Assembly (NCBI RefSeq): GCF_940670685.1
Contig: NZ_OW711693.1
Location: forward strand, 2,480,001 to 2,544,000
Direction: 5' to 3'
Length of the DNA: 64,000 nucleotides
Source of the DNA: Anaeropeptidivorans aminofermentans
Lineage (GTDB): Bacteria > Bacillota > Clostridia > Lachnospirales > UBA5962
Under the pieces are notes generated by a model. It did not search any database and was not told the origin of the DNA. It saw only the letters and a program-made list of their open reading frames with translations. Of this stretch, positions 24,145 through 40,179 are shown one piece after another. Positions within the stretch are counted from its first letter, which is position 1, and each line of letters starts with the position of its first letter. The position numbers were made by a program, and so were the translations under genes.

Positions 24145-25224
24145 ATGAATCGAAAAGTTAGAGCTGCCCAGTATGGCTGCGGTAAAATGAGTGTTTACCT
24201 TATGCGCTATCTACTGGAAAAGGGCGCGGAAATCGTAGCGGCCTTTGATGTTAATCCTGCCGTTATCGGCAAGGATATCGGTGACATTATCGGAGGAGAT
24301 AAGGTAGGCGTAATTGTTTCAGATGCTAAAGACGCCGGCCGGATTTTAAAAGAGCTTAAGCCTGATGTATGTGTAGTAGCAACAATGAGTACAATGGCGG
24401 ATATAAAAGATGCATTCACAATTTGTGCCGAAAGCGGAGTAAATGCCATTTCCACATGTGAAGAAGCTTTATATCCATGGAACTCTTCACCGGATATTAC
24501 AAAAGAGCTTGATGCGCTTGCCAAGAAAAACGGCTGTACTTTAGCAGGAAGCGGTTACCCCGATATGTATTGGGGTGTGCTTATTGATACCCTTGCAGGC
24601 TCCATGCATAAGATAACAGGCATAAAAGGAAGCAGCAGCTACAATGTTGAAGACTATGGCATTGCTTTGGCAAAAGGCCACGGCGCAGGATTAACCATAG
24701 ACGAATTCACCAAAGAAATCGGCAATTATAACGATTTATCCTCTGATGAAATTAAAAAGCTTGTTGAAAGCGGCTCTTATATTCCAAGCTATATGTGGAA
24801 CCAGAACGGCTGGCTTTGCAGCAAAATGGGCCTTACCCCTATTTCTCAAACTCAGATATGCGTTCCCACAACCCATAGCGAAGATTTGCATTCCGAAACC
24901 TTAGGTATGACCATAAAAGCCGGAGATGCAACAGGCATGTCTGCAATTGTTACTACTAAAACAGCCGAAGGAATTACCCTCGTAACAGAATGCATCGGAA
25001 AAGTATATGCGCCCAATGAATTTGATAAAAATGAATGGACATTTTACGGTGAACCTGAAACCACCAATATCTGCAATAGGCCCGCTACGGTAGAGCTTAC
25101 ATGCGCAAATCTCGTAAACCGTATTCCTGCTCTTATAAACAGTGCTCCAGGATACATTTCTACAGACAAGATGCCGAATAACCGTTATCTTGTAAGGCCC
25201 CTTAATGAATATGTAATCGGATAA
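24145..25224 (+). CDS. ord: 2,4-diaminopentanoate dehydrogenase-like NAD(P)-dependent enzyme
   Basis: 359 residues, start set by AGGAGG 8 bases upstream. N-terminal Rossmann fold related to dihydrodipicolinate reductases (RAAQYGCGKMSVYLMRYLLE, FDVNPAVIGKDIGDIIG, VATMSTMADI), then a catalytic/dimer domain with the family motif SGYPDMYWGVL. The length and motifs match the 2,4-diaminopentanoate dehydrogenase family of clostridial ornithine fermentation (Stickland-type), which deaminates 2,4-diaminopentanoate to 2-amino-4-oxopentanoate. The usual ortAB and oraSE partners are absent here, so the substrate may be another amine or amino acid. The strong terminator after it and the MerR promoter before it make it a single regulated unit. 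Confidence 0.8.
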   Translation: MNRKVRAAQYGCGKMSVYLMRYLLEKGAEIVAAFDVNPAVIGKDIGDIIGGDKVGVIVSDAKDAGRILKELKPDVCVVATMSTMADIKDAFTICAESGVNAISTCEEALYPWNSSPDITKELDALAKKNGCTLAGSGYPDMYWGVLIDTLAGSMHKITGIKGSSSYNVEDYGIALAKGHGAGLTIDEFTKEIGNYNDLSSDEIKKLVESGSYIPSYMWNQNGWLCSKMGLTPISQTQICVPTTHSEDLHSETLGMTIKAGDATGMSAIVTTKTAEGITLVTECIGKVYAPNEFDKNEWTFYGEPETTNICNRPATVELTCANLVNRIPALINSAPGYISTDKMPNNRYLVRPLNEYVIG

Positions 25225-25234
25225 TAAATATATA

Positions 25235-25286
25235 AAGCCCTAAACCAAGCTCTTACAACAGAGATTGATTTAGGGCTTATTTTTTA
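25235..25286 (+). terminator. Terminator of the ord-like gene
   Basis: AAGCCCTAAA / TTTAGGGCTT with inner arms CAA/TTG and CTCT/AGAG, followed by a run of six Ts. Confidence 0.88.
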
Positions 25287-25308
25287 GGCTAAAGTAAAAT
25301 AATTTGCT

Positions 25309-25451
25309 TATAGTAAATTTAAAGTTAAATAGTAGCAAAACCGTATCGTATATTCACGAAGGCTCAAAAAAGTACCGTTTCCGAAGGAAATCCGTTTTTT
25401 TGAGCCTGCCGGGAAAGGCTTTTGCTGCTTCTTCATAATAAATTTACTATA
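25309..25451. repeat. Dispersed palindromic repeat, class B
   Basis: Starts TATAGTAAATTTAAAGTT, contains AGTAGCAAAACCGTAT and TTTCCGAAGGAAATCCG, ends TTTTGCTGCTTC...AATTTACTATA. The ends are inverted repeats. It is the cleanest short class B copy in the window. Confidence 0.7.
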
Positions 25452-25571
25452 CAGCAACAAAGCTCTTTTTAGCTTTGCTGACTATAAGCGGCTTAATATA
25501 AGCGCTTCTATTATATTTAAGCCGTTTATGAAAAATAGGTTTTGTTACTGCCTTAAAGCTGTTTTACTGTA
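25452..25571. repeat. Truncated class A repeat abutting a class B copy
   Basis: 25491-25571 match the right half of the class A element (GCTTAATATAAGCGCTTC...TTAAGCCGTTTATGAAAAATAGG...GTTTTACTGTA). The left half is replaced by a small hairpin (AGCAACAAAGCT / AGCTTTGCTG, 25453-25480). Four repeat units in a row fill this spacer. Confidence 0.6.
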
Positions 25572-25572
25572 T

Positions 25573-25740
25573 TAGGACGTGTTCCCACTATATAAATATG
25601 CAGATAAAATGGGCGGTATTTAGCCAAACAAGGAAGCGTTGACGACGCATACTGGAAGGAGTCTGCTAGGAAACGCTGACATAGTATGGCTAAATAGCGC
25701 CTTTTTAGATGCTTGCTTAGATTAGCGGGAACACACCCTA
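25573..25740. repeat. 168-bp palindromic element with TAGGRYGTGTTCCC ends
   Basis: Terminal inverted repeats TAGGACGTGTTCCC (25573-25586) and GGGAACACACCCTA (25727-25740). Inside, GGCGGTATTTAGCCA and TGGCTAAATAGCGCC pair, then GTATGC-type inner arms. It codes for nothing and is unlike class A or B. It looks like a MITE or REP-type element. Confidence 0.65.
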
Positions 25741-25775: not shown

Positions 25776-26513
25776 TTATATGCCCTTTGTTAAAAGTGCC
25801 ATCCCATGATAAGTTAAAATTAAACCTACAAGGCATGCTAAAAGAGGTGCTGCAATATTAGCCCATTTCGTAATCTTTTTGTTTATAACCCTATAAAGAT
25901 AATCAAATTTATCCTGTGCCTTTATATAAACAAAATATAAAATAATCAACGGCATTGTATATATGATGTTATATATAACAAGTATGAAGGATAGCTGTAA
26001 AAAGGTAAGCTTATAATTAAAAAGAATAGCCAGAAAAGCAAAATACGGTAAAGCCGTTGTCAGTTCAGAAATTGTTGCACCGATGCCTAAGGCCATTAAA
26101 GCTCTGGGCGATACGGATTTTATTTTAACAGATGTTTCTTTTATAGATTCTGTTATTTTATCCCCCTCTTTTGCCACAGCGCTTATATGCTTTTTAAGGG
26201 TCTCTATTTTGTTGTTTTGAATTAAAAGCCCCGCCCCAATGAGAAAGCCTATGCCAAGAATGATTTCCGCAATAAATAAGACTTGCCCATACTCTTCTAT
26301 AAACATGCTTAATATTTTTCCAATAAAAGATATAAGCCCGAAATATGCAAGAAAACCTCCTATAAGATTTGTAACACCTGTCGGTATAATAAAATACCAA
26401 ATATCCTTTGGTTTTTTGACCATTCCCTGCAATACGAATTGCTGAGTAATGGCAAAAGGGTTAAGGCTGTCGGCTGCACTTGTTAAAACAGTTGAAATTA
26501 ATAATCCCCACAT
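25776..26513 (-). CDS. GAP-family integral membrane protein under riboswitch control
   Basis: 245 residues; GGAGG upstream of ATG 26513. Six or so membrane segments with the early motif DSLNPFAI and a polar cytoplasmic loop in the middle (NNKIETLKKHISAVAKEGDK). The shape and motif match the GAP/SfLAP family (related to LysE-type and CcdA-type exporters), whose best known members move lipids in mycobacteria. Here a ykkC-class riboswitch ends 24 bp before the start codon, so I infer an export or transport role for the riboswitch ligand (probably guanidine) or for a related compound. This is not one of the usual guanidine exporters (small multidrug resistance type). Confidence 0.75.
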   Translation of the reverse strand: MWGLLISTVLTSAADSLNPFAITQQFVLQGMVKKPKDIWYFIIPTGVTNLIGGFLAYFGLISFIGKILSMFIEEYGQVLFIAEIILGIGFLIGAGLLIQNNKIETLKKHISAVAKEGDKITESIKETSVKIKSVSPRALMALGIGATISELTTALPYFAFLAILFNYKLTFLQLSFILVIYNIIYTMPLIILYFVYIKAQDKFDYLYRVINKKITKWANIAAPLLACLVGLILTYHGMALLTKGI

Positions 26514-26537
26514 GTAGTTTCCTCCTTATTTTTAAGC

Positions 26538-26662
26538 AAAAAAATAAGCCTAGGAGTTTCAATAACTCCTAGGCTTTTATCCCACCGTGTACACAATATA
26601 AAATTGTGCGTTTTCTCTCGGACCAGACTAATAATTTATATTACGGAACCCTAGAAAACTAA
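26538..26662 (-). promoter_or_regulatory. ykkC-class riboswitch, probably guanidine-I
   Basis: Reading the minus strand, the conserved blocks occur in order: TCTAGGGTTCCG, then TCTGGTCCGAGAG, then ACACGGTGGGATAAAAGCC, which are the signature of ykkC aptamers. A terminator stem (26546-26558 / 26564-26576, AAGCCTAGGAGTT arms) and a seven-T run (26538-26544) follow directly, and the 5' arm of the terminator includes the last aptamer bases. So ligand binding should block termination and switch the gene on. The block sequences fit guanidine-I better than the ppGpp or PRPP subtypes, but subtype should be tested. Confidence 0.88.
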
Positions 26663-26827
26663 ATAAGTATTCTGATGTGCTGTTATCATATCAAAAAGTC
26701 TGTAATCTGTCAACATTTCCGTATCTTTGTAAATCAACAAAGAGAAATTACCCGCAAATTAAAGTAATATTTATTAATCCCTTTCCAAGAAAGCAGTCAT
26801 AAAGCCCTTTTATTACTATATGTTTTC

Positions 26828-38940: not shown

Positions 38941-40179
38941 ATGAATAATCCAAAAAAATCCAAGGCATTATTACTCATTATACCAATATTAATTATCTTG
39001 TTCAATATTTTAATTATCCTGCGGCCTGCTGAAATCATAGGAGCCGCAAAAGAAGGCCTCTTATTATGGTATACGGCAAACGTTCCTTCCCTTCTTCCTT
39101 TTATGATAACGGTGAATATCCTTATGGGGCTTAAGGCTGTTGAATTTTTTGGTGTAATCTTTGAACCCTTTATGGCGCCTTTATTTAACGTAAACGGAAA
39201 CGGGAGCTTTCCTTTTATTGCCGGAATGACTTCCGGCTATCCCATAGGGGCAAAAGTAACCTCAAGGCTTAGACAAGAAAACTTAATTTCAAAGACGGAA
39301 GCACAAAGGCTTCTTGCCTTTTCCAATAATTCAGGCCCCCTTTTCATTCTCGGAGCCGTCGGCGTAGGAATGTTTAAAAATCCTTCCGTGGGATATTTTC
39401 TCATGCTGATCCATTATCTTGGGGCAATTTTAAACGGGCTTATTTTTAAGTATTATAAAAAGGAAAAGGTTAAGTCTGTAAGCCGCGTTAAAGGAACACT
39501 TTTCAGCGACGCCCTGGAAAAAATGAGAATCGAAAGAATAAGAGACGGAAGAAGCTTTACAATGATTCTTTCGGAAAGCCTTATGGATTCCATGACCGCA
39601 ATCGTTAATATCGGCGGATATATTATGCTTTTTTTCGTGGTAGTAAAAGCTCTTGAAATCGTAAATATTATATCCATTTTTGAAAGCCTTCTTTATCCCC
39701 TTATAAAAATACTGAACATATCTCCCGAAATGTTTAAGGGTCTTTTTTACGGTATATTCGAAATAACAGGAGGTGCGGGAAAACTGTCGGCTCTTCCTTT
39801 AAGCAGGCCCGTAATCCTTTTAGCCGGCTTTATTCTTTCCTTCGGCGGCTTTTCAATCCATGCTCAGTCTTCAAATTTTATATCCAAGACGGATATCAGC
39901 ATGGCAATATATATTTTATCGAAAATTAGCCACGGGCTTATTACAGCCCTTTTAGGCTATATTCTATATCCTTTTTTTAGCTTTCAAACTACTGCCGAGG
40001 TTTTTGGCTATTACGGATTAGACCCTTTAAGAGAGCTTATAGGCTCTGTCATTATATGCATCATATCTTTATTTGCAATGTTTATGACTTATTTTATAAT
40101 CGCCGCTGTTTCAAAGTTTTCGGAATACAGAAAAAAAAGAAACCGTCTGAACGGTTTCCCTAAATATAAAAAAGAATAA
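38941..40179 (+). CDS. ylbJ: Sporulation integral membrane protein YlbJ
   Basis: 412 residues with about nine membrane segments and nucleoside-gate-like repeats (LWYTANVPSLLPFMITVNIL, FIAGMTSGYPIGAKVTSRLR). YlbJ belongs to the Gate family and is needed for proper spore maturation in Bacillus subtilis. It is divergent from the HlyD-like gene. No ideal ribosome binding site can be seen (AGAGTGATAAG). Ends at a hairpin shared with the convergent coiled-coil gene. Confidence 0.93.
   Translation: MNNPKKSKALLLIIPILIILFNILIILRPAEIIGAAKEGLLLWYTANVPSLLPFMITVNILMGLKAVEFFGVIFEPFMAPLFNVNGNGSFPFIAGMTSGYPIGAKVTSRLRQENLISKTEAQRLLAFSNNSGPLFILGAVGVGMFKNPSVGYFLMLIHYLGAILNGLIFKYYKKEKVKSVSRVKGTLFSDALEKMRIERIRDGRSFTMILSESLMDSMTAIVNIGGYIMLFFVVVKALEIVNIISIFESLLYPLIKILNISPEMFKGLFYGIFEITGGAGKLSALPLSRPVILLAGFILSFGGFSIHAQSSNFISKTDISMAIYILSKISHGLITALLGYILYPFFSFQTTAEVFGYYGLDPLRELIGSVIICIISLFAMFMTYFIIAAVSKFSEYRKKRNRLNGFPKYKKE

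Follow-up and report, generated by a model that had tools for sequence, protein, structure and literature searches.

Gdx is regarded as the guanidine detoxification route of most guanidine-I bacteria, and among GAP proteins glycolipid transport is known for a few mycobacterial members only. The window (the whole stretch of 64,000 nucleotides analysed here) brings the two together, as a ykkC-class RNA precedes a gene for a GAP/SfLAP-family membrane protein, and raises the question of what the RNA senses and what the protein does. An earlier note, made from the sequence alone, had considered the RNA a probable guanidine-I riboswitch and the protein a novel exporter of guanidine or else a different route of resistance, or, if the subtype were ppGpp/PRPP, a transporter in that response.

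The window RNA and the protein encoded behind it

The three ykkC sequence blocks reported earlier were all found, on the minus strand, and the intrinsic terminator followed by a start codon 24 bp on was confirmed as well (Table 1). A covariance scan (cmscan) of the whole window returned RF00442 (Guanidine-I) as the sole match above gathering, at 26665-26564(-), with 88.4 bits (E 1.7e-14), where the cut-off is 63, and model positions 1-107 of 107 covered, which bears out the class proposed in the earlier note. In a permissive scan of 26400-26800, the other families all stayed far below their own cut-offs. Judged by its sequence, the window RNA is an ordinary member of the known guanidine-I class. 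The terminator hairpin (26576-26546(-)) comprises 13 pairs and a 5-nt loop with ATTTTTTT behind it, and the terminator search found 1 against 0.1 expected in shuffles. Its 5' arm (26564-26576) coincides with the final 13 bases of the stretch matched by the aptamer model, so that a competing expression platform is present, and the start codon at 26513 lies 24 bp past the T-run. Guanidine-I is an ON switch, and a terminator-sharing layout as in the window has been described for it (PMC12186494). The aptamer 3' end reads GCCTAGGAG (or ACCTAGGAG) in the window (26564-26576) and in 14 of the 18 GAP-linked relatives (L054-L075); at the same 3'-end position, where most GAP-linked aptamers have GCCTAGGAG/ACCTAGGAG, SMR-linked aptamers show GCC(T/C)GGGAG.

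Table 1. Features of the guanidine-I/GAP unit, in window coordinates
Feature	Position	Strand	Remarks
Promoter-like site TTGACA-17-TATGAT	26713-26685	(-)	11/12 consensus positions; pattern match, function not implied
Guanidine-I riboswitch aptamer	26564-26665	(-)	RF00442, full length; linker as in SMR-controlling aptamers
Intrinsic terminator, stem and T-run	26538-26576	(-)	13-bp stem, T-run behind
Ribosome binding site AAGGAGGA	26520-26527	(-)	From sequence; 6 nt 5' of ATG
GAP/SfLAP-family membrane protein, 245 aa, proposed guanidinium exporter	25776-26513	(-)	PF11139

The window protein scores 36.2 bits with PF11139 (SfLAP), just over the curated cut-off of 35, in agreement with the family assigned to it before, and its relatives score 36-58 bits. 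With PF00893 (SMR) it gave no match; the protein may act like Gdx, but it is no Gdx. As the neighbouring gene (24145-25224(+)) is convergent with the GAP gene, the latter stands as a single-gene unit, as the earlier note had it. In the host genome of 3.76 Mb, the guanidine-I RNA and the PF11139 gene of the window are each the sole one of their kind, and a genome-wide search for an SMR (Gdx) gene found none. Across 47 relatives, residue D15 of the first helix never changes and E150 hardly does, and the two residues are candidates for cation or proton binding; by eye, both also seem present in the outgroup GAP protein L037, suggesting that they are family-wide rather than guanidine-specific. The predicted structure is locally confident (pLDDT 90.6), but its implausibly long unbroken helices led us not to use it as evidence. 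Searches of the PDB gave no match by sequence with the window protein, and no confident match by fold with the predicted structure.

The intergenic region behind the GAP gene contains several repeats. An element of ~145 bp (25305-25462) has ~40 near-full copies with 85-92% identity on both strands of the genome, and is similar to its reverse complement, in the manner of a palindromic element of MITE- or REP-like kind. A second repeat of ~115 bp (25455-25571) occurs in a dozen or more copies with 78-89% identity, and the stretch 25640-25740 has one further copy at 78%, within an inverted repeat GTGTTCCC...GGGAACAC.

Ligand class of the riboswitch

The window linker before P3 proved to be CACGGTGGGA, like that of SMR(Gdx)-controlling aptamers, whereas the purine-gene aptamers of the survey carry ACACCTAAGGG or ACACCGTAGAGGG instead. 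A CACGG linker running into the next conserved block is found in 19/19 GAP-linked aptamers (the window and 18 relatives), and a survey of 398 genomes shows the same for aptamers linked to SMR or RarD genes and for others linked to guanidine; L033 and L035, whose downstream genes were called purine-type by eye, have linkers that differ from this guanidine-linked set. The core blocks of the window aptamer are also as in the SMR-linked aptamers and unlike the purine-gene ones. Since subtype-characteristic nucleotides sit almost only near the binding pocket (PMC5912903) and all 19 GAP-linked aptamers have the guanidine-I-type linker, guanidine is the expected ligand of the window RNA.

That the RNA might instead belong to ykkC subtype 2 (ppGpp or PRPP), with the gene taking part in that response, is suggested by the fact that most conserved blocks are common to the ykkC subtypes (PMC5912903). 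Yet the position at which L033 and L035 differ is unaltered in the window, the guanidine-I form is kept throughout the 19 GAP-linked aptamers, and the gene downstream encodes a membrane protein, where purine or amino-acid genes would be typical of subtype 2. We regard this assignment as extremely improbable, and the ppGpp/PRPP alternative raised in the earlier note was rejected on the grounds of the CACGGTGGGA linker.

Guanidine-I and guanidine-IV-type leaders on related GAP genes

With an alignment of the window protein as query, ~85,000 species genomes yielded 51 relatives, whereas a single-protein query of the species genomes yielded nothing. No relatives were found on viral contigs, and plasmids gave one remote match (27% identity, Klebsiella). 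The earlier note had proposed to look for GAP genes with ykkC leaders in other Clostridia, and cmscan of the upstream regions indeed placed a guanidine-I aptamer 5' of the GAP gene in 18 of the 51 relatives, with 73-98 bits. The distance from the aptamer end to the GAP start codon is ~40-100 bp in 17 of these and ~440 bp in L065, and the hosts include Faecalicatena, Anaerocolumna, Scatolibacter, Miniphocaeibacter and several Enterococcus. In L075 (Enterococcus sp. CU12B), a single guanidine-I aptamer leads an operon in which GAP comes first and a pair of neighbouring SMR genes begins 20 bp behind it. No guanidine leader was recognised for four of the 51 relatives (L055, with 65% identity to the window protein, L070, L072 and L076). 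Where the downstream gene was readable among the guanidine-I survey loci L006-L036, it was mostly SMR (22 by eye, many confirmed by PF00893 coordinates), while L016 has the same GAP protein (66-67% identity) and L017 a urea-carboxylase-associated protein. At L007 and L008, guanidine-I aptamers stand before RarD/EamA-type transporters, another non-SMR target.

SMR genes are present in 4 of 33 GAP-bearing genomes, and in one GAP genome, that of Olsenella uli An733, a guanidine-III RNA accompanies an SMR gene. Among guanidine-I/GAP genomes, the window's included, 3/19 have SMR genes, compared with 23/26 other guanidine-I genomes (Fisher p 1.3e-6); the latter set consists of the best-scoring guanidine-I RNAs before other genes, most of them on SMR genes, its genomes were scored GAP-free from the gene after the listed riboswitch alone, and G795 and G826, whose proteins are identical, probably represent a single species that enters this comparison two times. 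Strong SMR matches occur in just 12/196 genomes of Clostridia at large, and because Clostridia genomes are often without SMR, a host without it is weak evidence by itself, and we give weight only to how guanidine-I/GAP genomes compare with the other guanidine-I genomes.

More distant GAP relatives have another conserved leader, in which a small hairpin with an (A/G)CCG loop is followed by a TAGG(T/C)C-loop hairpin that resembles a terminator. An ACC in the first loop mostly comes with GGT in the second, GCC comes with GGC, and L103 has G-U, so that the loop-loop pairing covaries. Such guanidine-IV-type leaders were assigned to 29 of the 51 loci (8 of type b, 5 of type c, 12 of type a, and 4 in which the leader stands only before an upstream PNPOx gene), the types being sorted by motif and 12 of the 29 assignments resting mainly on motif. 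The guanidine-IV-type leaders in L069-L104 matched no Rfam 15 family at gathering score, and routine annotation may therefore miss them. A covariance model built from the eight type-b GAP leaders (R1) and searched over 291 Clostridia genomes matches leaders of PnuC (L105, L106, L108, L109), MATE (L111) and GNAT (L113) genes, with the genes of L105, L109, L111 and L113 called by Pfam and those of L106 and L108 by resemblance. A second model from type-c leaders (R2) gave 70.7 bits for L111 and 37-52 bits for the PnuC leaders, and just 19-28 bits for type a where it was detected.

PnuC and MATE have been published as new transporters under guanidine-IV (Lenkeit et al. 2020; PMC7736828), and GNAT is among the guanidine-IV target genes (PMC9788692). 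Of the nucleotides that the former paper names in its text for the L. lactis guanidine-IV RNA, all six (G62, U63, G66, U67, A71 and G72) agree with the type-b loop GTAGGTCTTAG; in types a and c some of these positions are different. As R1 and R2 match leaders of published target genes and the type-b loop fits the named nucleotides, types b and c, which have two hairpins and the loop-loop pairing, are filed as guanidine-IV and type a as guanidine-IV-like, all on motif and model resemblance. Gd4v, a variant whose ligand is given as unknown (PMC9788692), may account for part of the leaders in the sister clade; for type b, the named nucleotides and the association with PnuC fit guanidine-IV. Type a is a shortened leader just 5' of GAP (L078, L081, L086-L090, L096, L097, L099), in which the loop-pairing TAGGCC is also the terminator 5' arm, making aptamer and terminator mutually exclusive, unlike in the published guanidine-IV layout. 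Tandem leaders, type c and then type a, precede one GAP gene in L083 (-176 and -63 relative to GAP), L084 (-183 and -49) and L099. Within the window, the guanidine-IV-type models gave weak matches of 17-22 bits at 25199-25286, where the tail of gene 24145-25224 and the adjoining hairpin lie, and at 39601-39640.

A tree of 50 GAP sequences and an outgroup, the root and a few long branches of which (L076, L099, outgroup) are unsure, yields a supported clade with the window gene, in which 17 of 18 rows have guanidine-I and one is without leader (support 98/94); in the sister clade, all 25 rows have guanidine-IV-type leaders (support 98/100), and the leader label (I, IV or none) needs 5 changes on the tree. 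In L056 (Faecalicatena contorta), a guanidine-IV leader, a PNPOx gene, a guanidine-I aptamer (89.9 bits) and GAP follow one another, the guanidine-IV leader scoring 69.4 bits with R2, although L056 was not used in building that model. Several other bacteria have the same PNPOx-GAP pair with a guanidine-IV-type RNA in the intergenic slot. Given the guanidine-I aptamer in this slot in L056, it appears that one guanidine sensor has been swapped there for another of unrelated class. In L056, L082, L088, L097, L100 and L102, the gene beside GAP encodes a PNPOx-family flavoprotein and has a guanidine-IV-type leader to itself, and we found no paper on a PNPOx-guanidine-IV link in the searchable literature.

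Proposed function and comparison with known systems

We consider it quite probable, from the sequence comparisons above, that the window GAP protein is a guanidinium exporter standing in for Gdx under a guanidine-I ON switch. Without guanidine, the AAGCCUAGGAGUU strand would pair into the 13-bp terminator and transcription would stop; with guanidine, the aptamer would retain this strand and RNA polymerase would read through, so that the GAP-family protein would be made and guanidinium exported, which is Gdx's job in most guanidine-I bacteria. It is known that the SMR targets of the guanidine-I ON switch are guanidinium exporters (PMC12186494), and GAP has been placed in the LysE superfamily, mostly exporters (PMC4608589); export by the GAP clade, the ligand response of the window RNA and the identity of the substrate are put forward as predictions. 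The reading as a novel exporter of guanidine or a different route of resistance has gained strength from the guanidine-I leaders of 18 of the 51 relatives, the guanidine-IV-type sister clade, the SMR operon and the SMR-free host, with guanidinium transport itself as its predicted part; our confidence is limited by the four leaderless relatives, the bias of the comparison set to SMR, the tie of the founding GAP protein to glycolipids, substrates of a very different nature, and the lack of a usable fold match. The broader proposal, that the GAP clade is a widespread guanidinium exporter family which takes the place of Gdx in some enterococci and many Clostridia, and that it has come under two guanidine riboswitch classes of unrelated kind, exchanged in the PNPOx-GAP slot, seems to us reasonably likely.

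The protein could conversely import guanidine, or a guanidino compound, as a nitrogen source, with the riboswitch acting in an assimilation response, as there are bacteria in which importers and enzymes that degrade guanidine are likewise under guanidine-I and -II (PMC12186494). We consider this unlikely: in the window, as at most guanidine-I loci, GAP is on its own with no carboxylase or hydrolase genes adjoining, and in L075 it shares an operon with two genes of the SMR family, whose guanidine-I-controlled members are guanidinium exporters (PMC12186494). It is also rather doubtful that GAP relieves some other effect of guanidine stress, for example by carrying a lipid, or a guanidino compound that is larger than guanidinium or modified (methylguanidine, agmatine-like), in place of guanidinium itself, since the leader of the window clade is guanidine-I, a selective guanidine sensor, and the pattern of SMR presence and absence together with the shared operon points to Gdx's task. 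This idea takes its appeal from the founding and best-known GAP protein, which is tied to mycobacterial glycolipid transport (PMC4608589), from the GNAT genes and, beside GAP, the PNPOx-family genes that guanidine-IV also controls, and from the possible Gd4v leaders in the sister clade (PMC9788692).

No paper that joins a guanidine riboswitch with GAP/SfLAP was found in the searchable literature, and the main texts of the guanidine-IV papers (PMC7736828, PMC9788692) name PnuC and MATE but not GAP, which might be listed in their supplements. Within that literature, GAP/SfLAP appears to be a new target in guanidine biology: a recurrent candidate guanidine exporter from a family unrelated to Gdx and an informative added gene for both the guanidine-I and the guanidine-IV regulons. 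If guanidinium export by GAP holds true, the family gains a small-molecule substrate, and it is explained how guanidine-sensing bacteria without Gdx cope.

The closest known system is guanidine-I/Gdx (SMR, SugE type), with the same aptamer class, terminator ON-switch layout and single transporter gene as in the window, and in L075 the GAP and SMR families even come under one guanidine-I riboswitch. The proteins differ, as Gdx proteins are four-helix SMR proteins of ~105 aa, whereas the window encodes a SfLAP/GAP protein of ~245 aa, with no sequence relation detected between them. Non-SMR exporters (PnuC and MATE) were likewise proposed from their association with guanidine-IV (PMC7736828), the kind of leader seen in the sister GAP clade; they are, however, other transporter families, and were described as not at all or hardly ever controlled by guanidine-I to -III, whereas GAP is under guanidine-I and guanidine-IV-type leaders. 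Within the GAP family (TC 2.A.116/PF11139; peptidoglycolipid or sulfolipid-1 addressing proteins), the window protein is over the cut-off and its length lies within the 180-290 aa range. Its clade is nevertheless distinct from the rest of GAP, with an NPxAIxQQ motif and a marginal fit to the Pfam model, and it is tied to guanidine riboswitches, whereas the known GAP proteins are tied to mycobacterial envelope lipids.
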